This document shows, in pieces, positions 33,394 through 55,723 of a stretch of DNA of 64,000 nucleotides. Source of the stretch: a virus. A program made the translations under genes and the position numbers. Below the pieces are notes generated by a model. It did no database searches. It worked only from the letters and a program-made list of their open reading frames with translations, and had not been told where the DNA came from. The stretch's first letter is position 1, and each line of letters starts with the position of its first letter. The stretch covers positions 1 through 64,000 of IMG/VR virus record IMGVR_UViG_3300042868_003731; one strand, 5' to 3'.

Positions 33394-34317
33394 TTATGAC
33401 TTAATAAGGCTTCTGAACTTGGCGAGATCTTCATCATCGTCATCGTCAACGCTATCCATTGACGACTGAGACTGTTTCATTTCTTGCTGAGATTCGCTCT
33501 TTGAGAAACGACTCATGTCAAGATCTTCATCAACTTCGTCTTCAGCTTTGCGATTACCGTCAACCTGGTCACCAGTAAGGTTCAGTACACGATAAAGCTT
33601 TGCCTTCAACTCTGCGTAAGGTTTGAAGTGTTTAGGATCGACGATTTCTTGCAGAGAATGTTCTGATTTCCAAACGTTTTCCAACTTAGAGTCATCTTCG
33701 AACAGAGGCTCAGACGAGTCGAATTCAGACTTATCATAGTTCGCGTAACCTTCGAACTGACGGATCTTAAGACGGAAGTTTGCACCTTCCCAAAGATCGA
33801 ACGGGTTAACCGGCTTTTCATCTTCGAATTGCGGGTTCATCAAGTCGTTCAACTTGTCGAAGATCTTTTTGCCGAACTTGAAAAGGAAAACCTTTCCATC
33901 ATTGTCGGGATTGGCGCTATCCTTAATCACGTACACGTTAGCGATGTAGTGAAGACGACGCTTCTGTTTGCGAGCCTGTTCTTTGTCTGCTTCAACACCG
34001 GAATTCCACAGCTTAGAATTCAATTCTGAGACTGGGTCGTCTTTGTTGATTGTGGTTAAGGAATTTTCGATATACCAAAGACCAGTCGGACCTTGGAAAC
34101 CATGATCCCACAAACGAACGAATGGCATATCTTCTCCGTTTGGTGCAGGAAGAAAGCGAATGATCGCAAAGCCGTTTCCAGCTTTATCTCGCGATGGTTT
34201 CCAAAACTTGCCTTCGTTGGGATCGGTGTAGCTCTTCTGTGCAATCTGCGAGAGCTGAGAGTTCAATTTGTCGAGTGACTTTGAACGATTATTTTTGAGT
34301 GTAGCAAAATCTACCAT
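33394..34317 (-). CDS. 32: Single-stranded DNA-binding protein, T4 gp32-like
   Basis: 307 residues from the ATG at 34317 (AAGGAG site). It coats single-stranded DNA and interacts with gp59, gp41 and UvsX. The N-terminal cooperativity domain, the OB-fold core (PFVRLWDHGFQGPTGLWYIE, NVYVIKDSANPDNDGKVFLF) and an acidic C-terminal tail are present. It contains no Cys at all, so the structural zinc site of T4 gp32 is missing. Confidence 0.93.
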   Translation of the reverse strand: MVDFATLKNNRSKSLDKLNSQLSQIAQKSYTDPNEGKFWKPSRDKAGNGFAIIRFLPAPNGEDMPFVRLWDHGFQGPTGLWYIENSLTTINKDDPVSELNSKLWNSGVEADKEQARKQKRRLHYIANVYVIKDSANPDNDGKVFLFKFGKKIFDKLNDLMNPQFEDEKPVNPFDLWEGANFRLKIRQFEGYANYDKSEFDSSEPLFEDDSKLENVWKSEHSLQEIVDPKHFKPYAELKAKLYRVLNLTGDQVDGNRKAEDEVDEDLDMSRFSKSESQQEMKQSQSSMDSVDDDDDEDLAKFRSLIKS

Positions 34318-34386
34318 CGGTGTATCTCCTTGTATGCGATGTATGACAATGTATTGCAATTTTATGACGGATCAACCATCACAATA

Positions 34387-34992
34387 CTATTTATCTTCGA
34401 AAAACTGTTCTTTCACAATCTTCGAAAATTTTTTTTGATCCACTTCCATGAATGGATAATATTTCTTGGATAACCTTATTATATCGCGCGCGATGAATTT
34501 GTCAACTATTTCTTTTTCCCATAGGTCATAAACGTTTGATATGCGGGCTAAAATAGAAAACGTCTCGAGCGATATTTCTTTACGTAGGTATAGAGTCATA
34601 ACGTATGGATGCTGACCATCTTTCACTACGAAGTTGTCGTGATAGTTCTCTTTAAGTTTCTTGATGTCGTTCTTGAACATATACGTAAGAGACTCTACTC
34701 TCTTTTCCCATTCGACGAATATGTTCTCACCTGTTTCATCTACGATATCGCGGATCCATACCTTTTGATTATGGATAATGTTCGCGAGTAGAATCTTAGT
34801 AGGATCGTTTCTCTTTGACAGTTTGTAAAAGAAAAACGCGTCGTTTCGTGTCTGAAATTTATCAAAGGACGCGCGCACTTTACCATTATACTTATGATAA
34901 TCGTAGCTATCGCTTTCAAAGTGTTTCTTCAATGCCAAGTAGTTGACATAGACACGAAACGACTCCTCATTAGCATAATTTAACGAGACCAT
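34387..34992 (-). CDS. 59: Helicase loader, T4 gp59-like
   Basis: 201 residues. All-helical; FRVYVNYLALKKHFESDSYD and KVRASFDKFQTRNDAFFFYK match the gp59 family, which loads gp41 on gp32-covered forks. Located between gp33 and gp32, the usual order in T4-like phages. Overlaps gp33 by 23 bp. Confidence 0.88.
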   Translation of the reverse strand: MVSLNYANEESFRVYVNYLALKKHFESDSYDYHKYNGKVRASFDKFQTRNDAFFFYKLSKRNDPTKILLANIIHNQKVWIRDIVDETGENIFVEWEKRVESLTYMFKNDIKKLKENYHDNFVVKDGQHPYVMTLYLRKEISLETFSILARISNVYDLWEKEIVDKFIARDIIRLSKKYYPFMEVDQKKFSKIVKEQFFEDK

Positions 34993-35203
34993 TCTCTTCC
35001 TTCTTCACCATTCTTACAGCAACCGCTTCTTCACGAATTTTTTCCTTGAGTATCGAAGATTTCTTAACGATCTCTGCGACTGTTTCAATCTCAAGGTCAT
35101 TTTCTTTCGCGTATTCTACTAGCGCATCGATATATGTAGCGCCGTTCGAAAGCTTGGAGGCGATTTCCATATGTATCTTTTCTGCTGTTCTTGTGACAAT
35201 CAT
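34970..35203 (-). CDS. 33: Late transcription co-activator, T4 gp33-like
   Basis: 77 residues. YIDALVEYAKENDLEIETVA plus EIVKKSSILKEKIREEA match the small gp33 family, which links the sliding clamp to the phage-modified RNA polymerase at late promoters. Its presence fits the many TATAAATA boxes here. Confidence 0.82.
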   Translation of the reverse strand: MIVTRTAEKIHMEIASKLSNGATYIDALVEYAKENDLEIETVAEIVKKSSILKEKIREEAVAVRMVKKEENGLVKLC

Positions 35204-35541: not shown

Positions 35542-36216
35542 CTAGATCTCCTCGAATAAAACACTATCTATGTAGTTGTTTTTATCGTTTTCAGAGATAC
35601 CCATCGAGAGTATTGATCTGTGAAGATGCGGATTTAGCTTTTGGTTCCTACAGTATTGATTGTGTCTCTCAGTGATCTTTATTGGATTCGTGACGTAAAG
35701 ATTGCTCTTCATATTCGTTACATAGTATTCAACGAGATGAAGGCAGGTCTTTGAGAGTTGATCGATCTCTTCCTCAGATTTTAAATTACCTGCCGCGATC
35801 ATTGAAGTTGAGAAGATACTCTGAGCCCAGTCAGGAAGATCACGAGGTTTAGACCATGAAAGATCCTTCGCCGTGTCTCTCATATAACTCAGGTATGGGT
35901 GTTCTGGAGTTTCGTCCGTAGTTGGAGAGAAGTCAAAGAACGATCCGGTGATCTTACTTGGGCCTGCCACGATGTCGAAACCAAGGATTGGAAAGTTAAA
36001 ATGCTCGTGCGGAAATATATTCACATGCATAAGCCAGAGTTTTTGTGACTCTCTATTGTCAATCGTCTTTAAGTGACACTTTCGAACATACTTGGAACTC
36101 CAGATATTATCTTTCCATCCATCGAATAGTTCTAGGCTAGAGTTCCTACTATAGTGATCGTCAAAGATACTTTCAATCTTCTTTGACAGTTGAATCAGCG
36201 GGGTCCATACCTCCAA
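35542..36216 (-). CDS. Ferredoxin-dependent bilin reductase (PcyX/PebS-like)
   Basis: 224 residues, size typical of the family. It reduces biliverdin, the product of the heme oxygenase encoded upstream. The family region is readable: LWLMHVNIFPHEHFNFPILG, then FDIVAGPSKITG and the Asp of FFDFSP. A TTG start is chosen because GGAGG lies 6 bp upstream; it overlaps the heme oxygenase gene by 44 bp. Phage-encoded members include PebS (cyanophage) and PcyX (oceanic viruses thought to infect Alphaproteobacteria), so a PcyX-type enzyme making phycoerythrobilin is the best guess. Confidence 0.88.
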   Translation of the reverse strand: MEVWTPLIQLSKKIESIFDDHYSRNSSLELFDGWKDNIWSSKYVRKCHLKTIDNRESQKLWLMHVNIFPHEHFNFPILGFDIVAGPSKITGSFFDFSPTTDETPEHPYLSYMRDTAKDLSWSKPRDLPDWAQSIFSTSMIAAGNLKSEEEIDQLSKTCLHLVEYYVTNMKSNLYVTNPIKITERHNQYCRNQKLNPHLHRSILSMGISENDKNNYIDSVLFEEI

Positions 36217-36766
36217 AGTAATCCTCCAATTCTTCTAGAAATTTCTGAACCATGCTAAAGCATACTTTAGCTTCTTTCTCTAAACCGTCGTGTAGATTGT
36301 TTCGAATAAGAGTCTTTAATTCATCGACATCTCTTTCGAACTCGTAGAAGTTAGTTGGTCCTGGTACTAGCTTCTTTATCATCTGGCCACCGGAAAGGTC
36401 TCCCATGTGTCTAACATACATATGTGCAAGAAGCTTGTCTTTATCTTCTTTAATCTTATGAATGTATTCTACATAAGCAGTTGCGGCGGGTAGAGTAGGG
36501 GCAGTTTTTAACGAGATCTCGGACTCTGACTCCATGATCGTAATATCTTCGAGGATAGCAGCCGACCTTAATATGCCGAAGATATCCTCTCCGAAGATTC
36601 CTACTTCTGTCGCATAATACTCTAGAGTAACGTACATAAGTAACTGATTCTTCAAGTACGTGTAATACTGATAAGGTGTAAGTTTTTTCTTTAACATTCT
36701 ATTCATAAAAGCAGTTCGTTCTGCTCTTCTGTGCTCTTCTTTCGTGAGCTCTCTCAAATTGTTCAT
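36173..36766 (-). CDS. ho1: Heme oxygenase
   Basis: 197 residues. It opens heme to biliverdin, CO and iron. The proximal heme ligand is His12 (LTKEEHRRAER) and the distal helix shows GDLSGGQM (residues 122-129). Together with the bilin reductase it forms a two-step pigment cassette. No host-type photosynthesis genes are in the window. Confidence 0.92.
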   Translation of the reverse strand: MNNLRELTKEEHRRAERTAFMNRMLKKKLTPYQYYTYLKNQLLMYVTLEYYATEVGIFGEDIFGILRSAAILEDITIMESESEISLKTAPTLPAATAYVEYIHKIKEDKDKLLAHMYVRHMGDLSGGQMIKKLVPGPTNFYEFERDVDELKTLIRNNLHDGLEKEAKVCFSMVQKFLEELEDYFGGMDPADSTVKED

Positions 36767-36975
36767 GGCTTACAAATATTTCCTTTACTCGTTATTGCAT
36801 CAATACCAATCTTACTGAATTCTTCAAAGTTCTTAGTTACTATTTTACTCAGTTCTGTCTGTTTGTCAATAAAATTCAGCAGCCCAGCCTTGATTTTTTC
36901 ATCAGAGACAGTTGATCTTACGAACTGTCTCTTTGTTTCTTGAACGAAGTCTATAAAGTAATTTACGTTTAGCAT
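36763..36975 (-). CDS. Small helical protein upstream of heme oxygenase
   Basis: 70 residues, amphipathic helices throughout (MLNVNYFIDFVQETKRQF...), ending NICKP. Overlaps the heme oxygenase start by 4 bp, so translated with it. A GATAAATA late-like box lies upstream near 37006. Faintly phasin-like in composition; function unknown. Confidence 0.6.
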   Translation of the reverse strand: MLNVNYFIDFVQETKRQFVRSTVSDEKIKAGLLNFIDKQTELSKIVTKNFEEFSKIGIDAITSKGNICKP

Positions 36976-37012
36976 TTTTGAAATCCTTTGTGGTGTGATA
37001 TAATATTTATCA

Positions 37013-39058
37013 TCATTTTGAAGTTGCTATGAATACTCCGTTCCAATCTTTTGGAAGTTTTTGAGTTTTCATATATTCGCAACGCTCGATCCACATATCA
37101 TAATACTTATCCATTTTTCCATCGAAACAGTGTCTAAGGCTTTGGCAAAGTTCAATAGCTTCGCTAAACTTTTGTCTTAGATACAGTTCATGCATCGCAT
37201 CGTGAATTTTTTTGTTGCTAATATAACTCGGCTGAACATCATCTAGTACCGTGTAAATTGAAATACCTACAGTTTTACCTTTTACTGCTAGATCATCTAT
37301 CTTAAGGAAAAAGAAGTCATCTTTACAATGTTCAACGGTTGCACCACCAACTAATAGCAAGCAGCCGTATTCTTTACATTTGCTTTCAATGCGAGCAGCG
37401 GTTGATACGCTGTCACCTAACACGTCATAGCTGTGGCGTTTAGTTGAGCCCATTTCCCCAATATAACCAAGACCGGTATTAATGCCGGCACCCATGCCTA
37501 CGGGTGGGCGACCTTGAGGTATGATAACATCTTTATTAAATTTTTCTACGGCCTTAAGCATGTCCAATCCACACTGGACAGCGGTTTTAGGATGATGCGG
37601 ATCGTCGATAGGAGCGTTATGTATGTGCATTGACGCGTCACCAATGTACTTAATAATCATACCACTAGAGTCAAGAACTGGCTGTGTAATTGCATCCATG
37701 TATCCATTCATTACCTTTGTAAGACCAGCAACATCATCACCAAAACTTTCGCCTAAAGGAGTAAAGCCACGAAGATCAGAGAATAGAATACTAACTTCTT
37801 TCTTAACGCCTTTTTTAATTAAATCTGGATTCTTCTGTAGGATCTCAACAACCTCAGGTGAAGCATATCCTCCGAACTGTTTCTTAATCGCTTGCTTCTG
37901 TAGGAATTCGTCTATGAACTTTACAGCATAACGAATTAGACCAACGAGCAGTAATCCGGCTGGAATTATAACGCCGTCGATAAGCATCTTATATTCAGCG
38001 AACGCATACATACTTGATGCAATGCTTGCTACGACAACTACCGCAAAGAATGCTAGACCGACGTAGGTCCATCTCGCTAATGCTATCAGAAGTAAACCTG
38101 CGATACTGAATGCGATGAGTTCCATACCTGGTGCCCAAGCCGGTCTCTCAATATTCGTACCGTTGAATACAGTTCCCAATAGAGCAGCTTGAAGATCGTG
38201 CGGCCATACTTGACCAGCTGCAGTCGCTATCGGGTTATTGATACCTGCAGCCGTAGGAGCTACAAACACCACCGCACCACCGAAGTCTTCAGGAAGATCT
38301 GTCGCACTTACTGATATTGACTTTTGACTCCAGTCGATCCATACTCTCGCAAGTTCGTCCGTTGAGATAGGACCAAACTGTGGAACTCTTAACTTATCAA
38401 CTCCAAGTGGCGAAAGACGTATCTGAAAGCTTGGATCACCAGCAAGAACTCGAAGAACCTCGAGTGTTAAGTTTGGATACAAAACACCTTCAGACTCAAT
38501 AACGAGTGGAACACGTCTTGTGACACCATCGGGTTCAGGAAGTGTATTAACGATACCGGATCCAATAGCAAACTTCTCAAGCTCAGGAATGTTTGCAATG
38601 ACGCCAGGATACGAAAGAATGAGATCCTGATACTCAGAGTTAATGATTGCTGCACCAGGATTGATCGGTTCGTTCACGGTTCGATCACCGCCGACTGTAT
38701 TAAGAACGACTGGGTTCTTTTGTAGAGTCTCAGTCAACTTATAGTCTTCACCGAAGCGATCCTTCTCGCTCATCAGGACGCCGAACACGACGAGTCCTGC
38801 ATTCCTAGCATATAGATCTTCGATTAATGCTGCATATTCTCCTCGAGGCCATGGCCACTGACCCTTTTCTTCGATCGCAGCTTCATCAATATTCACAGTG
38901 TAGATATTGTTTTGAACCGGTTCTTGATTCACTATCAATTGGTCAAAATATCTAAGCTTTATGCTTTCTAAGAAACCGGGGTTACTTACAAACAGCATAC
39001 ACAATAATCCGAGTACTAATAGACTCCAAATAGGTGATAACAATATCTTCTTCATCAT
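37013..39058 (-). CDS. CHASE2-domain adenylate cyclase (class III)
   Basis: 681 residues. N-terminal membrane helix (about 10-24), extracytoplasmic CHASE2 sensor (about 30-300, WPWPRGEYAALIEDLYARNA), three membrane helices (about 312-378), then a class III nucleotide cyclase domain. Metal Asp428 (ILFSDLRGFT) and Asp474 (KYIGDAS) are present, as are Lys470 and Asp545 for adenine recognition and Arg556. The transition-state Asn is Ser552 (VSTAARIE). It probably makes cAMP in response to a periplasmic signal. It lies beside FecR and curli genes; how it affects them is unknown. Confidence 0.88.
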   Translation of the reverse strand: MMKKILLSPIWSLLVLGLLCMLFVSNPGFLESIKLRYFDQLIVNQEPVQNNIYTVNIDEAAIEEKGQWPWPRGEYAALIEDLYARNAGLVVFGVLMSEKDRFGEDYKLTETLQKNPVVLNTVGGDRTVNEPINPGAAIINSEYQDLILSYPGVIANIPELEKFAIGSGIVNTLPEPDGVTRRVPLVIESEGVLYPNLTLEVLRVLAGDPSFQIRLSPLGVDKLRVPQFGPISTDELARVWIDWSQKSISVSATDLPEDFGGAVVFVAPTAAGINNPIATAAGQVWPHDLQAALLGTVFNGTNIERPAWAPGMELIAFSIAGLLLIALARWTYVGLAFFAVVVVASIASSMYAFAEYKMLIDGVIIPAGLLLVGLIRYAVKFIDEFLQKQAIKKQFGGYASPEVVEILQKNPDLIKKGVKKEVSILFSDLRGFTPLGESFGDDVAGLTKVMNGYMDAITQPVLDSSGMIIKYIGDASMHIHNAPIDDPHHPKTAVQCGLDMLKAVEKFNKDVIIPQGRPPVGMGAGINTGLGYIGEMGSTKRHSYDVLGDSVSTAARIESKCKEYGCLLLVGGATVEHCKDDFFFLKIDDLAVKGKTVGISIYTVLDDVQPSYISNKKIHDAMHELYLRQKFSEAIELCQSLRHCFDGKMDKYYDMWIERCEYMKTQKLPKDWNGVFIATSK

Positions 39059-39307: not shown

Positions 39308-39646
39308 CTACTTAGAGTTCTGTAATTCTATACCAAAGACGATGCCAACATTATTGTTTTCAAATCCTGGTGTGATGTAACCTATTACATTATCATTAAA
39401 ATCGTATGTTGTTCTGATAAAAGGAAGCACTTCGTAATTGCCGTATCCAGACACTACGCCAAATTCATGGTTCCACTTGGATCGTGTTATTTGAACACCG
39501 GCGTACGCGCTTAAAGCATCTTCGCTGTTATAATAAGCGCCGGCGATAAAACTATCGTCTTGTAAACGGATATGAGGATGAATGCTATTGTAATGTTGTT
39601 CAAAGTCTAAATGAAAACTCAATGCTATTCCGTATATTAAATCCAT
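39308..39646 (-). CDS. Beta-strand-rich conserved phage protein
   Basis: 112 residues. Alternating beta pattern and the motif NSIHPHIRLQDDSFIAGAYY plus NSEDALSAYAG resemble a small outer-membrane-barrel-like protein found in several T4-like marine phages. No clear signal peptide. Precedes the fibre-like genes. Role unknown. Confidence 0.6.
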   Translation of the reverse strand: MDLIYGIALSFHLDFEQHYNSIHPHIRLQDDSFIAGAYYNSEDALSAYAGVQITRSKWNHEFGVVSGYGNYEVLPFIRTTYDFNDNVIGYITPGFENNNVGIVFGIELQNSK

Positions 39647-39659
39647 TTTAATTTCCTCG

Positions 39660-41342
39660 CTACTGATTCACTGTTAAGTTACACCCCGCAGAAACATTAC
39701 ATACTCCGGATACAGTACTTCCATCGCTCATACTATGTGGCAAACTGTATGTCTTAGAAGTTGATCCGGACTGGTTTAGAATAAAATTCCATGCTCCGCC
39801 ACCGTTCTCTAACTGAACAGTCGCAGCATGACTGCCGCTTCCATCCTGAATTACGCTAGCATTATGATCGTTCCCAATTAACGTTAGATTTAAATAATGG
39901 TTCCCAGTTCCTTTTTGGTTCACGGACAGATCATTGCTGTTTCCGTTAACGTTTAAGAACATGTTTTTTCCAGTTTCTCTTTGCTGTAGTATTAGGCTGT
40001 TTCCATTGCCGATGATGTCAGCCTCTAGATAGTGTCTAGATGATGTAGTTGTTGTCTGTAAAATATCTGTGCTATTGTTATCACCATCGATATTTAAGAT
40101 AGCATAATGGCTTCCACCAATCTGTTGGATCTGAACATCATTGTCGTTTCCAACAATATTTACATTTGCATTATGACCGTTCGTCAAAGCAAGGTTGGCC
40201 GCTCTTCTCATCGCCTGTGAAGGATTGATACCTGACGAGTAAACCGGGGTTGGAGCAGATCCTGGGTTTGATACAGATCCTGAACCAGTCGCCGTTGATG
40301 TTGTTGTGTTGCCTGAATTGTAGTAGAATGTAATTTCTGCAATCTGCATACTGTCACAGTTCAAACCACAGCCGTCTCCGGATTTAGTCGTGGGAAAGAA
40401 TATGTAATAGTAGACATACGCATTGCTGTTTGTGACTGGAATTTTAGGACTGGTCCAGAATCTATCGTTACTAAGTGATAAAGCACCTTCTTGAATCAAC
40501 GTCCAGTTTACACCGTCGTTACTTGCGTATAGCTTATAACTCGTCGGGTCTCTTCCTGAGAAGTCATTCGCAGTGGTAAGTGTAAACTCGTTTACCACTC
40601 GCCCAGCGTTTAGTTTAATAGTAACACCAGCGTTTTTCTTATCAAAGTTTAGATACTTTGTGTTTGGATTATTATCAAACGCTTGCGAAGCACCTTCACC
40701 CGATGGGCTGTTATTACTCGTAGGATAGTGATTGGTTATGTTAACATTCGAGCTGTTATTATAGATTGGAGTTGCGACAGCAGGTGGTGGCGCAGTCTGT
40801 CCCGCAGCCAACGGCGTTGAGCTTGGTGGAACATACGCTTGAAGTTGACTATTCGTTGGGTTATCTTGAGTGACAGACCACGAACCGCTTTGACCAAGAC
40901 TATATCCTTGACCGGTAGTGATGAGAGTTCCCCACATACCGTTGCCGTTATAGAAGATCGCTCCGTTGGCTAATGCTCGAAACGAGCCTGTGTTGTTAAT
41001 TATTTTGTATCTTGTGCCGTCGCTATTGAACACGGCCATACCGTAGGTGCCAGGATTGGTTGTACTATTAAAGAACCCAATGTATCTGCCATTACTGTTT
41101 GCGTCTGCAGTTTGTGCAGCTGTCCATCTAGCAGCCGAATTAGTCTGAGTAGCATAGTTCACGCTCGCAAAGATATAGTTAAATCCGCTCGCATGCAGTG
41201 TTCCGCCGGAAATATACCACTGCACGTCGAATATCTGCGCAGTGCTGAGCTTTAAGTCAGTGATAGCCGCAGCGGCAATACTAACGAACATAAGGTAAAC
41301 GAGTATCGCGCTACTGAGTCTGGATAGTAGTGATAGAAACAT
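39660..41342 (-). CDS. Secreted protein with F5/8C-like domain and curlin-type repeats
   Basis: 560 residues from the ATG at 41342 (GGAGG 5 bp upstream). Signal peptide (to about residue 29, AAAA), an N-terminal beta region, an F5/8 type C (discoidin)-like sugar-binding domain (about 210-345, KLYASNDGVNWTLIQEG), then curlin-like repeats (about 390-540) with spaced QQ/GN motifs such as GNDNDVQIQQIGG and GDNNSTDILQ. Probably an amyloid-forming surface adhesin exported by the CsgG pore encoded nearby. Overlaps the FecR gene by 32 bp. Confidence 0.7.
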   Translation of the reverse strand: MFLSLLSRLSSAILVYLMFVSIAAAAITDLKLSTAQIFDVQWYISGGTLHASGFNYIFASVNYATQTNSAARWTAAQTADANSNGRYIGFFNSTTNPGTYGMAVFNSDGTRYKIINNTGSFRALANGAIFYNGNGMWGTLITTGQGYSLGQSGSWSVTQDNPTNSQLQAYVPPSSTPLAAGQTAPPPAVATPIYNNSSNVNITNHYPTSNNSPSGEGASQAFDNNPNTKYLNFDKKNAGVTIKLNAGRVVNEFTLTTANDFSGRDPTSYKLYASNDGVNWTLIQEGALSLSNDRFWTSPKIPVTNSNAYVYYYIFFPTTKSGDGCGLNCDSMQIAEITFYYNSGNTTTSTATGSGSVSNPGSAPTPVYSSGINPSQAMRRAANLALTNGHNANVNIVGNDNDVQIQQIGGSHYAILNIDGDNNSTDILQTTTTSSRHYLEADIIGNGNSLILQQRETGKNMFLNVNGNSNDLSVNQKGTGNHYLNLTLIGNDHNASVIQDGSGSHAATVQLENGGGAWNFILNQSGSTSKTYSLPHSMSDGSTVSGVCNVSAGCNLTVNQ

Positions 41343-42408
41343 TCGTTCCTCCATCGTTTATTTGTACAACCGCAAATACTCCATCCTGAGTTACGTTATA
41401 CGTTCCGTTCGTATCTAAACTTGTTGTCAGCATTGATATATGCGGTGAACGATCAGAATCTAATAACATGAACTCTTCATTCACGACTGCGCGTATCCAT
41501 GGAAAGTTCTTAATGTTAGGTAGTACTTCGCTTTCTTCCTCTTCTAGCATACTCTCAAGAGATGCCACGTTGATTTCTAGAAGATTATCCAAATAAGTGT
41601 TATTCACTCTGTTTACGTCAAGCGAGTTGGTCGTTAATTCTTCATCTTCAGCAAGCAAGTCTTCAGAGAGTTCTTCATTCTCTAAGAGATCAACATCAAG
41701 TTCGGTTCGTATCTCTTCCTCTTCTTCATCGTTAGAAAATCCGCCTGGAAATTCTGATGGAGGAACTATGATAAGATTGTTATTGATGTTTGATTGATCT
41801 AAAAGAAGTTTACGAGGATCCGCCGGAGATAGCCCGCTGTGAGACACCATAGTTGCTTGATAAGATTCATTTAGCATCACGGTTCCGCCATCAGTACTCA
41901 CTGAGATGGATCCGACTGGGCATTCGTCTTCATTGAGAGTTTCGTCTGGGCAGCTAGGTAGGAGAATGATTAGACTGCGACCAAGCTCGTCAACCGTCAT
42001 AGAGAAGTCTGTTCCTCTGACCGTAATGCTTGCCGTTGGCGTGCGGATGTCGACGTTCTCTCTGCTAGTTTTGGCTAGCAGACCAGATGTCATCTGAACT
42101 GTTCCAAGAGCAACCTCCATCGACATCTTACCAGCGCTCGTGTTTGGATCGTACACAAAATCATCAATCACTAGCTCACTCTGCTCTGTAATTTCAACTC
42201 GCGTGCCATCTTCAAATGTTAGGCCGAGCCGAGTATTAGCAGTAATTAATTGATCTAACATTTCAACACCAAAGCCCATCTCAACAGTGAGTTTATCACT
42301 GTCTCTTCTGGCTTCAGCTGCATTTCCTTTGAAATCAGTCACGGTCCCAACTTCGGCAATCGCGAAGTTGGGAATGATCATCATTACGATGAATAAGATT
42401 CTCCACAT
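41311..42408 (-). CDS. FecR-domain protein
   Basis: 365 residues from the ATG at 42408, 2 bp after the curlin stop. Signal peptide (to IAE, about residue 19), FecR-like core (about 20-170: GNAAEARRDSDKLTVEMG, TRLGLTFEDGTRVEI, TASITVRGTDFSM), then an acidic linker and a C-terminal NVTQDGVFAVVQINDGGTN segment of curlin flavour. FecR domains often accompany CHASE2 cyclases in bacteria. Its part in amyloid assembly or sensing is inferred. Confidence 0.78.
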   Translation of the reverse strand: MWRILFIVMMIIPNFAIAEVGTVTDFKGNAAEARRDSDKLTVEMGFGVEMLDQLITANTRLGLTFEDGTRVEITEQSELVIDDFVYDPNTSAGKMSMEVALGTVQMTSGLLAKTSRENVDIRTPTASITVRGTDFSMTVDELGRSLIILLPSCPDETLNEDECPVGSISVSTDGGTVMLNESYQATMVSHSGLSPADPRKLLLDQSNINNNLIIVPPSEFPGGFSNDEEEEEIRTELDVDLLENEELSEDLLAEDEELTTNSLDVNRVNNTYLDNLLEINVASLESMLEEEESEVLPNIKNFPWIRAVVNEEFMLLDSDRSPHISMLTTSLDTNGTYNVTQDGVFAVVQINDGGTNVSITTIQTQ

Positions 42409-42409
42409 A

Positions 42410-43027
42410 TTAGTGCTGAACGATATCCACGGTGTTAGTATCTCCATCTATGTCAACATTTACGATATGTCCTGTAGATGTAGTCTGAGTAAGATTAATC
42501 ACGTTGAAATCACTTGGTGTTGTCTGGCCGACGTTGAACACGTTGGTTGCATCAGGAGCATTCAATGCAAAGTTGATTTCGTTATTATTACCAGTAAGAT
42601 TGAGTGTAGTATCTGTGAGGTTGACTTGAATACCGCTGCAGTTACCGTTAATGTAATCTTTACATAGAGTGATCACGTTATCGTTACCTATGACGGCTGC
42701 GACGAAATTATTGTCGACTCCGCCACTGATATTTGAAAGCACTTCGTTTAGATCACCTTCAACACGATATTCATAGTTCGTGTCGTTAGCACTTACTTGA
42801 ATAAAGATGTCAGCAATGTTTCCGTCACCATCTTGAACAATCTCGACGTTGATGTCGTTACCGTTCACGATCATAGGAGCCGCATCGGTGTTGATTCTGT
42901 TGTTTCCATTTTGCTGAAGTACGTTTACGTTAGTACTATTTCCAGCCTGGTCGATATAAACTTCGCTTGCGAATGATGGAACCGCGATTCCTATCATAAG
43001 AGCAGAAGTTAATAATAGGTTTTTCAT
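42410..43027 (-). CDS. Curlin-like amyloid subunit (CsgA/CsgB type)
   Basis: 205 residues with a signal peptide (to SFASEVY). Curlin repeat signatures (spaced N/Q/G): SEVYIDQAGNSTNVNVLQQN, GNDINVEIVQDGDGN, TDTTLNLTGNNNEI, NVDIDGDTNTVDIVQH. Likely secreted unfolded through the CsgG pore and polymerised outside. It precedes the FecR gene. Confidence 0.78.
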   Translation of the reverse strand: MKNLLLTSALMIGIAVPSFASEVYIDQAGNSTNVNVLQQNGNNRINTDAAPMIVNGNDINVEIVQDGDGNIADIFIQVSANDTNYEYRVEGDLNEVLSNISGGVDNNFVAAVIGNDNVITLCKDYINGNCSGIQVNLTDTTLNLTGNNNEINFALNAPDATNVFNVGQTTPSDFNVINLTQTTSTGHIVNVDIDGDTNTVDIVQH

Positions 43028-43045
43028 TTGAGTTATTTCCTTTTG

Positions 43046-43819
43046 TTATTGTTTGAAAGCCCAGTAGCCGTTCTCGGCACCTTCTTTGATCATTTCAACA
43101 ACTGCGGCCTGAATCGCGAGTCTTACTGCATGGTTCACAGGTTCGTTCTGTGAATTACCAATTTCAAGTTCGACGTTCTCAGTACCTGCCTCTATAAACT
43201 TGAAAACACCTAAATTTGTACTTGTACTTAATACGGTTTTTGATACTGCTGTACTTGTTAAAACTTCACCAGATTTTACAGAAACAGCTCGCATTGAGAC
43301 AGTGATCACATCTTCAGTGTAACGAGTGCTAGGTCCTATGCCAAGGTATCTTGCACCTGCGCCACCGGTTAATGTATTTGAATCGTAGCCAACGATTGCT
43401 CCCTCAACGATTACTCCTGCGAATAGCATAGGTGATAAAGGAGTTTCGTCACCAACTTCTTCTCTCGTCTGACGTATAATCTGACGTTCGCGTGCTAGGT
43501 TCTCTAACCCTACACGTTCTACAACTCGGAACCAAGTTCCGTTTCCAGCATCACGCAATGCTTTGATCACGTATTGTTCTGCACCCTGTGTAACTGCAGT
43601 CGAGATGTTAGCAAGTTTTTCGCTCGGTAGTCTCTGACCTGTCTTATCTTCGAACGAATACACCGCAACGACCATCGCACCCTGTGCTGGTGGCGGAAGA
43701 TTAATGAAATCTTTCTCTGTCACGACGGCCTTTGGTGATTCAATTGGTATTCGATTCACTGTGGTAGAGCAGCCAGCAACGAGACCTGCGAATAAGAGTG
43801 ATAATACTATCTTTTTCAT
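43046..43819 (-). CDS. csgG: Curli secretion pore lipoprotein CsgG
   Basis: 257 residues. Lipoprotein signal LVAGC (Cys17), then the CsgG family core: VVAVYSFEDKTGQRLPSEKL, GTWFRVVERVGLENLARERQ, RYLGIGPSTRYTEDVITVSM. CsgG forms the outer-membrane channel for curli subunits. Adjacent to csgF and curlin genes. The periplasmic partner CsgE was not found. Confidence 0.92.
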   Translation of the reverse strand: MKKIVLSLLFAGLVAGCSTTVNRIPIESPKAVVTEKDFINLPPPAQGAMVVAVYSFEDKTGQRLPSEKLANISTAVTQGAEQYVIKALRDAGNGTWFRVVERVGLENLARERQIIRQTREEVGDETPLSPMLFAGVIVEGAIVGYDSNTLTGGAGARYLGIGPSTRYTEDVITVSMRAVSVKSGEVLTSTAVSKTVLSTSTNLGVFKFIEAGTENVELEIGNSQNEPVNHAVRLAIQAAVVEMIKEGAENGYWAFKQ

Positions 43820-44274
43820 TAGAATGCAAACTCCCCTACTGGTACATCAAAGCTGGATGCTAAGTCTCCGTTTGAGTCGTAGACTTCTATGTATATTCTA
43901 TCGTCTGTTCCACGCATCCACTTTATTCTGTCACCAAATGGTGTCTCGACTTCTGTCCATTCTCCAACGACAGCACCACCGCCTTCGCCAAATAGGTTAT
44001 CCGCTATCTGACGCGAGAGCTGTGCGTATATTCTTGATTCAAGGTTGTTTTGAAATTTGTAGACGTTGCTATTGCGATACTCGCGCTCAGCGCGCTCGAT
44101 AGCAGCGAGTTCATCAGCGATTATCTTGTCTTTTCTTTGTTGCTCTAACTGATGAATTGTAAGTACGTGTGTACTATATCCGTTTCCGCTAAACGCTGGG
44201 CTATTGAATTCAAAAACTTCAGCGTATGCAGGCGTACTTAAACATAAAGATGTTATAAGCAGTCTCTTTATCAT
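43819..44274 (-). CDS. csgF: Curli assembly factor CsgF-like
   Basis: 151 residues. Signal peptide (ending AYAE), then VFEFNSPAFSGNGYSTHVLT, matching the N-terminal pore-constricting region of CsgF, and a C-terminal domain. CsgF couples secretion to nucleation at the cell surface. Overlaps csgG by one base. Confidence 0.8.
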   Translation of the reverse strand: MIKRLLITSLCLSTPAYAEVFEFNSPAFSGNGYSTHVLTIHQLEQQRKDKIIADELAAIERAEREYRNSNVYKFQNNLESRIYAQLSRQIADNLFGEGGGAVVGEWTEVETPFGDRIKWMRGTDDRIYIEVYDSNGDLASSFDVPVGEFAF

Positions 44275-45612: not shown

Positions 45613-45918
45613 TTAAAGGTTATGAAGATTGTGATGGTCGTTGTCATATGTGTGAATTGCATGACAGTTATGACATAAAATTCTACACTTACTGATTTCT
45701 TCCATCAACATTTCCATACCCCAACGAGTAAGTTGTTTAGCAGAATATTTTGGATGCTTTGTGCTAGGATCCAAATGATCAAATGCTAATGCTTGTGGAT
45801 GTTTATTAAAACCACAAATTTCGCATCCTCTGCTTATTTTATACTCATTTAGAAACGCGCGCCTTTCCAGACCCTTGTCTTTCTTATACTGCTTAAAAAC
45901 TTCTTTATCTGCAAACAT
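45613..45918 (-). CDS. HNH endonuclease inside the tmRNA intervening segment
   Basis: 101 residues from the ATG at 45918 with AGGAGG 6 bp upstream. CEICGFNKHP, FDHLDPSTK and CRILCHNCHA form the paired Cys2 zinc sites and the catalytic HNH/DH core. The whole gene fits within the 360 bp between the CCA end of the tmRNA acceptor piece (45960) and the first base of the coding piece (45600), where processing would normally discard the RNA. Probably a homing-type mobile gene. Confidence 0.88.
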   Translation of the reverse strand: MFADKEVFKQYKKDKGLERRAFLNEYKISRGCEICGFNKHPQALAFDHLDPSTKHPKYSAKQLTRWGMEMLMEEISKCRILCHNCHAIHTYDNDHHNLHNL

Positions 45919-45959
45919 AGATTCCTCCTTTGTTTCGCAAACATCGTTTAATTTACTTT

Positions 45960-46020
45960 TGGTGGAGCTGCGGGGATTTGAACCCCGGTCCAGAATGTCT
46001 ATCGTCTGCTTCAACGATTA
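45960..46020 (-). ncRNA. ssrA: tmRNA acceptor piece (permuted gene, upstream part)
   Basis: Reads a T-arm (CGGGG TTCAAAT CCCCG), acceptor strand CAGCTCC, discriminator A and encoded CCA at 45962-45960. ACATTCTG can pair with CAGGTGT of the coding piece as helix 2. It lies upstream of the coding piece on the transcribed strand, so the gene is circularly permuted. The 5' end is set from the promoter at 46028-46055. Confidence 0.88.
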
Positions 46021-46225: not shown

Positions 46226-46993
46226 TTATTTCCTAACATAATGAAAGTTGACAATTTGTTCAACGACTTCTTCAAAGTCATTCAGATATAGCATATTCGC
46301 GCTATCAGACGGAGAACTATCCGGATCCGGATGAACTTCTAAAAAGAAATTAGATACACCAAGAGCACTAGCTGCACGACATAAACCAGGAACATAATTC
46401 CTATTACCGCCACTACTCGACCCCATGCCGCCAGGCTTTTGAACAGAGTGTGTTGCATCAAATACAAACGGAACATCGTAATTATCCATAATGTACTGGA
46501 TACCAGTGTAATCGACCACAAGAGTGTTATACCCAAAGCTCGTTCCCCTTTCAGTTAGCCAGACTTCTTTTGCTCCTTCGGTTTTCGAGAGAATACCTTT
46601 GACATCCCACGGCGCAAGAAACTGTCCTTTTTTAATATTGACGATTTTGCCAGTCTCTACGGCAGCTCGGATAAGATCCGTTTGGCGGCAAAGAAAAGCA
46701 GGGATTTGAATAACATCTACATAATCCTTTACGAACTCTACCTGCCAAGTTTCGTGAACGTCGGTTACGATGTTCAGTTCCAACATATGACTACGAAGAA
46801 CGTCAAAGTCATGCATAGTCTTTTCAATGCCAAGACCGCGTTTTCCTAGTGAGCTTGTTCGATTTGCTTTATCAAAACTAGCTTTAAAGAAGTATTCAAC
46901 TCCATACTTCTTACATACCAGTTCGCAATGCTTTGCGATTTCAAGAGATTGCTCTAGACTCTCGTGTTGACATGGGCCAGCAATGATCCTCAT
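46226..46993 (-). CDS. kdsA: 3-deoxy-D-manno-octulosonate 8-phosphate synthase
   Basis: 255 residues. Condenses arabinose-5-phosphate and PEP to Kdo-8-P for Kdo sugars. Visible: IAGPCQHES, FFKASFDKANRTS, GLGIEK, VWLTERGTSFGY, FDATHSVQKPGG. Complete and of normal length minus the extreme N-terminus. It may feed the KpsS- and GT29-like transferases at 17408-24919. Coupled to a cupin gene. Confidence 0.92.
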   Translation of the reverse strand: MRIIAGPCQHESLEQSLEIAKHCELVCKKYGVEYFFKASFDKANRTSSLGKRGLGIEKTMHDFDVLRSHMLELNIVTDVHETWQVEFVKDYVDVIQIPAFLCRQTDLIRAAVETGKIVNIKKGQFLAPWDVKGILSKTEGAKEVWLTERGTSFGYNTLVVDYTGIQYIMDNYDVPFVFDATHSVQKPGGMGSSSGGNRNYVPGLCRAASALGVSNFFLEVHPDPDSSPSDSANMLYLNDFEEVVEQIVNFHYVRK

Positions 46994-48687: not shown

Positions 48688-49191
48688 TTAATATCTAGAG
48701 CTCTTAAGTTTTTGAACTTCTTTATAGTTTGCAGCGTTCTGTAGAAATATCCTTGGTATCTCTAGATGTTTCGGCAAAGAAAGAACATATTGTATTAAAT
48801 CACAGACTTCTGAGTAAGTTACAGAAGGAAGGGAGTCTTCTAGCATTCCAAGATTGATCGTAGTGATCCTACATTTCTTATGGCTGTTATAAGTAATGTT
48901 ATCCGCAATGTGATCGAGAGACGCTTTTTGAGCCGCATACATGTAACCCTTTGAAAGATTTGGTAGACCTGCTCTCGACGATATGTTGATGATGAGCTTA
49001 CTACTATCTTCGTACCAAGCATGGCACCATTCTTCGAGTAAGAGTGTTTGCTGAAATCCAACGTGAGCATTATTAATGAAGACATCATAGTCTGATTTCT
49101 CTATCCTATCTTCAACTCGATAAGAGTCTGCGCCAAACCTATCTATGATGGCACCAGCGAGTTTACTGCTTCCAGTGACTGCGATTCTCAT
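48688..49191 (-). CDS. Short SDR-family oxidoreductase
   Basis: 167 residues. VTGSSKLAGAII is the nucleotide-binding start, FINNAHVGF the NNA motif and YMYAAQKASLDH the YxxxK site. Similar in size and layout to the SDR at 19139-19681. Overlaps the radical SAM gene by 29 bp. Substrate unknown, perhaps a sugar. Confidence 0.7.
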   Translation of the reverse strand: MRIAVTGSSKLAGAIIDRFGADSYRVEDRIEKSDYDVFINNAHVGFQQTLLLEEWCHAWYEDSSKLIINISSRAGLPNLSKGYMYAAQKASLDHIADNITYNSHKKCRITTINLGMLEDSLPSVTYSEVCDLIQYVLSLPKHLEIPRIFLQNAANYKEVQKLKSSRY

Positions 49192-50068
49192 TATAATGCT
49201 CCATTAAAATATCATAGCTCTTTTCTCCTACGAGTGTACCTATGACGCTGCACTTATTACAGGGACTAAAGTTTCTATTTGCTCTCGAGAGTCTCATTCT
49301 TACCTTCTGCATTTCCTTACTCATCCAAACTTCGGAGATAGGTTGCTGCATTAGGTTACCAACGACTCGTTCTCTACCCCAATCGTTTGCGCAGAACAGA
49401 ACGTCACCATTCCAATCAACGTATAGTTTATAGAAGGGATAGAAGCACTTATTGTTCTTCACGTTCTCAAGAGTATCAGTATCATCCATCCATTTGATAA
49501 GACCGGAACGATTATTGAATATGATCCCATGATCCTTTGGATCCCAATGAACTCTATACTTATAGTTCTTTTCTGGTATACCCTCGAGGATCTCGTCAAA
49601 GTATTGAATCTGTTCTGGGCCGTCGTACATATTGATATTAAGTACATCAAGACCAGCTTCAATCAGATCCTTGATAAGAGTCGTGTTAAGAGGATCTCCA
49701 TTTGTATTGCACTCAATGTACGCTTTACTATTGTGCGTTCTTAAGGCTCTAATGATATTTACAATGTCAGGGTTTAGAAGGTTTTCACCGAAGCCAGAGA
49801 TGGCGATTGTTCCGGTGTATTGTATATCAGCCAATCTCTTGGCTATGATCTCTGCGCCACTCGTCGTCATTCGAAGATTTCGATTTGGATAGACTCGAGG
49901 ATCGTGTCGAGGACAGAACACGCAGGAACGATTGCATAAATCAATCGTAGTGATATCAACAGACGAAATTGATTTCAGAATGTTCTGAGAGTCAAGAGTC
50001 TCGAAGTATTTCGTTTCTATGTCTTGACGTCTTTGAATAAACGTATGTTGGTTATCAGTTTCTTTCAT
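49163..50068 (-). CDS. Radical SAM/SPASM-domain enzyme
   Basis: 301 residues. The CNRSCVFCP motif (CxxxCxxC) binds the radical SAM cluster; ISGFGENLLNPDI and CNTNGDPL are typical later motifs. The C-terminus has extra Cys (CFYPFY, FCANDWG, CNKC) as in SPASM domains that hold auxiliary clusters. Such enzymes modify peptides or sugars. It overlaps an SDR and a putative glycosyltransferase, so a glycan-linked task is plausible. Confidence 0.82.
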   Translation of the reverse strand: MKETDNQHTFIQRRQDIETKYFETLDSQNILKSISSVDITTIDLCNRSCVFCPRHDPRVYPNRNLRMTTSGAEIIAKRLADIQYTGTIAISGFGENLLNPDIVNIIRALRTHNSKAYIECNTNGDPLNTTLIKDLIEAGLDVLNINMYDGPEQIQYFDEILEGIPEKNYKYRVHWDPKDHGIIFNNRSGLIKWMDDTDTLENVKNNKCFYPFYKLYVDWNGDVLFCANDWGRERVVGNLMQQPISEVWMSKEMQKVRMRLSRANRNFSPCNKCSVIGTLVGEKSYDILMEHYNENRSHWKQ

Positions 50069-55645: not shown

Positions 55646-55723
55646 TGGTGGTCCAAGCGGGATTTGAACCCGCGGCCGTGAGTTTTAGAGACTCGCGCTC
55701 TAACCAAGCTGAGCTATAGGACC
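55646..55723 (-). tRNA. tRNA with CTA anticodon (candidate amber suppressor)
   Basis: Full cloverleaf: acceptor GGTCCTA/TTGGACC (one mismatch), D-arm with GGTT, T-arm GCGGG TTCAAAT CCCGC, encoded CCA. Anticodon stem GAGT/ACTC with loop CTCTAAA gives CTA, which reads UAG. The loop differs from the Trp tRNA encoded at 55886 (CTCCAAA) by one base, but the rest is unlike it. Confidence 0.78.

Follow-up and report, generated by a model that had tools for sequence, protein, structure and literature searches.

What would a T4-like phage gain from genes that turn heme into a reduced bilin, and which bilin would it make? The question is raised by two adjoining genes in a 64,000-nucleotide stretch of viral DNA (hereafter the window), which is part of a 217,966-base T4-like virus record. 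The co-occurrence of hemO with a gene for a ferredoxin-dependent bilin reductase (FDBR) in phages is termed enigmatic in passages of a recent study (PMC11480375). In the list of open reading frames (ORFs), the heme oxygenase (HO) and reductase frames both lie on the minus strand and share 44 bases (Table 1). An earlier note, made from the letters alone, had named these two genes at this place, and the profile searches confirmed both: Heme_oxygenase of Pfam matched the HO with 83.9 bits (cut-off 23) and Fe_bilin_red matched the reductase with 67.9 bits (1.4e-18; cut-off 31), matches that are far beyond chance. The family matches also agree with its proposal of a heme-to-bilin pair, a putative activity. 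Alignment to 1iw0 showed that the HO possesses both the proximal-histidine region and the distal GDLSGGQ motif (GDxxGG), whose roles we assume to be the usual ones. Among GenBank phages, the HO matched three records, with Mosig at the top (35%). The reductase starts with TTG at 36216, a few bases downstream of GGAGG, and the N-termini of its relatives align on this start. The 70-residue ORF that precedes the HO gave no Pfam match above the cut-off.

Table 1. Features of the window, with positions counted from its first letter.
Feature	Position	Strand	Remarks
gp32 single-strand DNA-binding protein	33394..34359	-	Pfam gp32 1.3e-42
gp59 helicase loader	34387..34992	-	PHROG 269 3.3e-47
gp33-like late transcription coactivator	34970..35203	-	Pfam Trans_coact 2.1e-12
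Lys50-type ferredoxin-dependent bilin reductase of the PcyA/PcyX lineage	35542..36216	-	TTG start, TAG stop; PF05996
Heme oxygenase, canonical GDLSGGQ	36173..36766	-	Pfam PF01126 1.8e-23; PDB heme oxygenases from 4e-13
70-aa ORF, 3' end overlaps HO start	36763..36975	-	ORF list
T4 late-promoter-like octamer GATAAATA	37004..37011	-	between cyclase stop and 70-aa ORF
CHASE2-domain adenylate cyclase	37013..39058	-	Pfam CHASE2 1.3e-35, Guanylate_cyc 3.2e-17
Curlin-repeat, FecR, CsgG, CsgF genes	39660..44274	-	
Circularly permuted tmRNA, tag ANTNAAPVAYALAA	45474..46022	-	Rfam tmRNA_permuted 104.6 bits, alpha_tmRNA 50.5 bits
ORF between tmRNA acceptor and coding pieces	45613..46014		HNH-endonuclease-like Cys/His pattern by eye
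DAHP synthase	46226..46993	-	Pfam DAHP_synth_1 2.1e-53
Radical SAM protein with SPASM domain	49163..50068	-	
Amber tRNA, anticodon CTA	55646..55723	-	65 bits in Rfam

The AlphaFold2 model of the reductase, built from 68 aligned rows, had a mean pLDDT of 93 and a pTM of 0.90. Foldseek matched it to PcyA (3.0e-14), and the Foldseek and VIA-align matches comprised PcyA (Z 25.7), PebB, PebA, HY2, and PcyX, whose 5owg chain is short (Z 22.3 across 174 residues). With a profile score above the curated cut-off, the predicted fold is that of an FDBR, without telling which FDBR. A phmmer search of solved structures gave a clearer answer: the best match was PcyX EBK42635 (5owg; 3.7e-39), the phycoerythrobilin synthase of marine phages that is also carried by the cultured Pelagibacter phage Mosig, and PcyA came next at 2e-12. 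PebS was not among the 13 sequences found at E values up to 1. The enzyme shares with PcyX the fold, the lineage, the overlapping hemO, and the active-site histidine and aspartate, and it is 37% identical to the Mosig reductase. It differs from PcyX in that Asp55 is replaced by Lys50, the methionine at the Ile86 site by Leu62, and the phenylalanine at the Tyr238 site by Tyr215. Thus, although PcyX is the nearest family by sequence and tree, its catalytic Asp55 is missing. Compared with PcyA of cyanobacteria and cyanophages, His48, His64, Asp81, and Tyr215 correspond to His74, His88, Asp105, and Tyr238, respectively, whereas Glu76, the residue linked to 18-vinyl reduction, is again the lysine. 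With PebS of P-SSM2, only the FDBR fold and the central aspartate are common; the lineage and the active-site residues differ, and Asn195 aligns with a PebS aspartate that we take to be the second catalytic one, Asp206. The alphaproteobacterial AX clade of PcyA entered the comparison through its published descriptions. These comparisons place the reductase in the PcyA/PcyX lineage and not with PebS.

The lysine proved to be a property of a whole branch. Relatives were collected by several scans of viral and bacterial contigs; two of these listed 600 stretches each, of which at least 565 and at least 593 encode relatives. Part of them was typed, so that the totals of lysine-bearing (K-type) members are minimum values. 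In the 206 distinct reductases of at least 180 residues from the matches listed, the column of PcyA Glu76 and PcyX Asp55 holds lysine in 83, aspartate in 66, glutamate in 56, and alanine in one (PebS). The division follows the families without exception among these matches: lysine in 83 of 83 members of the viral branch of the window, aspartate in 66 of 66 PcyX of the Mosig branch, and glutamate in 56 of 56 PcyA. The column is anchored by an invariant histidine two residues earlier (PcyA His74) and by the retained His88 and Asp105 sites. It is one of nine columns, the Ile86 site included, that are fixed or nearly fixed in three ways among the K, D, and E groups. The Tyr238 site is tyrosine in the K-type and phenylalanine in 64 of the 66 PcyX (two gaps); in PcyA, Tyr238 touches Glu76 in mutant and intermediate structures, according to excerpts of PMC9800206. 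Since the pairwise identity within the 83 K-type members falls to 45%, with Lys50 being one of 53 invariant columns, the residue is probably under constraint. The signature is possibly new: the text of the bilin papers covered, taken without supplements, contains no mention of a lysine variant at this site, and what its passages do describe are hemO-pcyX pairs from Mosig and from pelagiphage-like contigs (PMC11480375).

Phylogenetic analysis agreed with this division. In a tree of 89 rows, from which PcyA of Bradyrhizobium ORS278 and the CB_2 enzyme, and hence bacterial AX-clade PcyA, were left out, the K-type and PcyX together split from PcyA at 100/99. The window reductase paired with an 80%-identical relative inside a six-row K-type set (95/84). 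PebS of P-SSM2 was a long-branch outlier, outside the set of K-type, PcyX, and PcyA. When the tree was rooted on PebS, PcyX fell inside the K-type, and a quick tree from which PebS and column 50 had been removed gathered the K-type on one side of a branch supported at 84; the relation of PcyX to the K-type, nested or side by side, varies with the root.

We are inclined, with moderate confidence, to regard the two genes as a co-translated auxiliary metabolic pair that would convert heme via biliverdin to a reduced bilin, the second step being carried out by a Lys50 enzyme of the PcyA/PcyX lineage, probably late and with phycocyanobilin (PCB) an unlikely product. The HO would open host heme to give biliverdin IX-alpha, CO, and iron, and the reductase encoded by the overlapping gene would then reduce biliverdin. 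The electrons would come from a ferredoxin of the host, because none of the Fer2 family was found in the record, which was searched family by family. PCB is unlikely to be formed because Glu76 of PcyA, needed for 18-vinyl reduction, is replaced by lysine at this proton donor site. In the text of the studies cited, Glu76 is the first proton donor of PcyA (PMC9800206) and is required for 18-vinyl reduction, and pre-PcyAs without Glu76 make phytochromobilin or phycoerythrobilin (PEB) (PMC10151467). The expected product would therefore be an A-ring-reduced bilin (phytochromobilin or PEB) or a two-electron intermediate. A freshwater CB_2 phage enzyme without Asp55 is reported to make PCB (PMC11480375), which counts against this expectation. 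FDBR products are described as poorly predictable from sequence in excerpts of PMC13193486; the product here would not be readable from homology, PCB being the least likely one.

The enzyme might instead be an ordinary PcyX that reduces biliverdin by four electrons, via 15,16-dihydrobiliverdin, to PEB, the lysine being a neutral mark of lineage. PcyX is indeed the best solved relative and joins the K-type in the tree, and the two-gene order matches that of Mosig; the lysine could also donate protons itself, which would allow PEB synthesis as in PcyX. However, the strict exchange of lysine for aspartate among the matches listed, together with the differing Ile86 and Tyr238 sites, makes this reading rather doubtful, and on these residues the reductase should not be classed as PcyX.

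The arrangement of the two genes varies within the K-type. Counting copies, 28 of the 121 listed K-type loci with both genes have overlapping frames, as in the window, and 93 have frames spaced by 30 to 1105 bases, whereas among 77 listed Mosig-type loci 70 overlap, four have a distance of one base, and in three the gap measures 603–644 bases. The distal motif of the HO is the canonical GDLSGG in 26 of the 28 overlapping K-type loci, the window likewise, and GELHGG in 81 of the 93 spaced ones. GELHGG occurs in 63 distinct K-type heme oxygenases (e.g., L012, L011, and L014) and puts glutamate and histidine at the sites that we take to be Asp140 and Ser142 of HO-1. Some spaced cassettes (L009, L012-like, L014, and L057) contain small, very basic ORFs of about 55–84 residues with ends like ARKARKAKK between the two genes; others hold small ORFs that look AbrB-like by eye or ORFs of 233–242 residues. 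In Mosig (L026, 11246–14343), an annotated ferrochelatase, endonuclease V, and three 2OG-Fe(II) oxygenases lie just upstream of HO-PcyX, and Mosig may thus both make and break heme.

The window shares two of three genes with the valaS-hemO-pcyA/X cassettes described in the text of Wegner et al. 2024 (PMC11480375). The third was sought in vain: neither AlaS nor ferrochelatase families were found in the record, and we discarded a three-gene cassette, a ferrochelatase beside the HO as in Mosig, and a phage-encoded ferredoxin. Because AlaS was detected in four of the 20 K-type records searched, some K-type phages may overlap the set of Wegner et al. The idea of a PmoC phage, suggested by CB_2-like phages, was likewise dropped, as the record gave no AmoC/PmoC match, a weak negative given that the control matched one genome, below the cut-off. 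A bacterial origin of the K-type was also considered. FDBR matches occurred in three of the 385 genomes from the class to which G009, a bin labelled Rhodobacteraceae, belongs, and those of K-type were confined to G009, the others aligning poorly or not at all. G009 carries K-type HO and reductase together on the same contigs, which we infer to be phage contigs in a mixed bin, and a bacterial origin was rejected on that reading. Of the 57 genome_contigs loci, four were K-type: three in G009 and a fourth in a bin labelled Bacteroidetes.

The genes around the pair support the T4-like assignment and the position beside replication genes that the earlier note had given. On the same strand, the reductase is followed by small ORFs, a gp33-like gene, gp59, gp32, a small ORF, UvsX (identified from tblastn matches), and gp41. 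The genes upstream did not figure in that note: in the order of transcription, with small ORFs between curlin and cyclase left out, they are CsgF, CsgG, a 205-residue ORF, FecR, a curlin-repeat protein, and a CHASE2 adenylate cyclase, after which come the 70-residue ORF and the pair itself. The phages Melnitz and HTVC008M have the order CsgF, CsgG, curlin/FecR, and cyclase in common with the window, and in Melnitz a tmRNA lies upstream; the window differs in that the hemO-reductase pair follows the cyclase, which is 50% identical to that of Melnitz. Phage curli modules as such have been described in the text of earlier papers (PMC7029224, PMC9004378). The phage CHASE2 cyclases appear to retain the metal aspartate and the adenine-type Lys/Asp sites. 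In the VNxAAR motif, HTVC008M has the usual asparagine, and the CHASE2 cyclases of the window, Melnitz, L035, L036, and L275–L277 have serine; for the motif and these sites we presume the customary roles. Further upstream, a phage-encoded DAHP synthase gene adjoins the tmRNA, followed by a radical SAM gene and a well-formed amber tRNA. TAG ends only five of the 66 ORFs of at least 100 residues in the window: the reductase, the ORF at 39308, curlin, and FecR in the cassette/curli stretch, and gp59; read-through at the reductase TAG would add two codons before TGA.

Late expression of the 70-residue ORF, the HO, and the reductase is plausible because a late-promoter-like octamer precedes the cassette and such octamers favour the gene-bearing strand. 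The minus (gene-bearing) strand carries 24 copies of the octamer NATAAATA and the plus strand carries none, and exact copies of TATAAATA, which we take to be the T4 late-promoter consensus, number 12 on both strands against 3.44 expected. Motif and fold nevertheless fall short of proving late expression or activity.

As to the host, the earlier note had seen several alphaproteobacterial marks, on which the evidence was mixed. The major matches of gp23 were Sinorhizobium phage phiN3 (66.5%), Melnitz (64.3%), Stenotrophomonas phage DLP6 (64.2%), and Bellamy (67.6% over a shorter stretch), gp32 matched Sinorhizobium phages at 60%, and the permuted tmRNA is of the alpha type. On the other hand, UvsX is nearest to phage C48C1 (66%), gp41 is about equally similar to Cr30, Melnitz, and cyanophages (about 51–55%), and the base of a 12-row gp23 tree is without resolved branching. 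Melnitz, a Methylophilales phage, shares both the tmRNA class and the curli-cyclase module; it scores 106.7 bits with alpha_tmRNA against 50.5, just above the cut-off, for the window, and the tmRNA was therefore rejected as proof of an alphaproteobacterial host. Such a host is possible. The remark that the hosts of viral PcyX and PebS are unsettled is partly outdated, as Mosig has a recorded host, Pelagibacter HTCC1062. The ORF inside the tmRNA gave no Pfam match.

Regarding the purpose, we tentatively suggest that removal of biliverdin would pull heme breakdown forward, so that iron is released and the heme of the host recycled. A role in feeding light harvesting is less favoured because the record yielded no gene for light harvesting or for a phytochrome core. 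Alternatively, the bilin could be loaded onto a host phytochrome or another bilin-binding protein and alter host light signalling, a programme that the cyclase could join. In Bradyrhizobium ORS278, hemO, pcyA, and alaS adjoin a phytochrome gene according to passages of PMC11480375, and a CHASE2 adenylate cyclase lies upstream in the window and in its 79–80%-identical relatives L035, L036, and L037. We judge this supply of a chromophore unlikely, since no PHY domain was found in the record, CHASE2 was detected in only two of the 10 records searched, and a cyclase match was present in only 14 of 193 loci, namely 10 that are the window's own or identical copies, the three relatives, and Melnitz; a ferredoxin or photoreceptor missing from a phage record, though, tells nothing about the host. 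That the reductase is a cyanophage gene of the PebS/PcyA kind serving phycobilisomes is highly improbable: 26 of the 27 GenBank phage records matching it are cyanophages, but at only 22–28% identity against 37% for Mosig, the positions of Lys50, His64, and Asn195 are taken in PebS by Ala, Asn, and Asp, and a psbA-type match was found in none of nine records (that of the window and eight other K-type records). The phylogeny with PebS, PcyX, and PcyA that the earlier note had proposed as a check did not group the reductase with cyanophage PebS, and the phmmer search, the column residues, and the lack of a psbA-type match agree with this.

Returning to the gene pair, its 218-kb genome gives the cassette a context in the form of a late-type promoter motif and an adjoining phage cyclase. 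It is conceivable, if somewhat doubtful at present, that the Lys50 reductases form a separate, widespread viral class in phages of heterotrophic bacteria, in which the lysine would redirect the reduction to a product unlike those of PcyA, PcyX, and PebS, such as phytochromobilin or a two-electron bilin. Glutamate, aspartate, and lysine at a single residue define three classes with possibly three products, and thus provide a clean test case.
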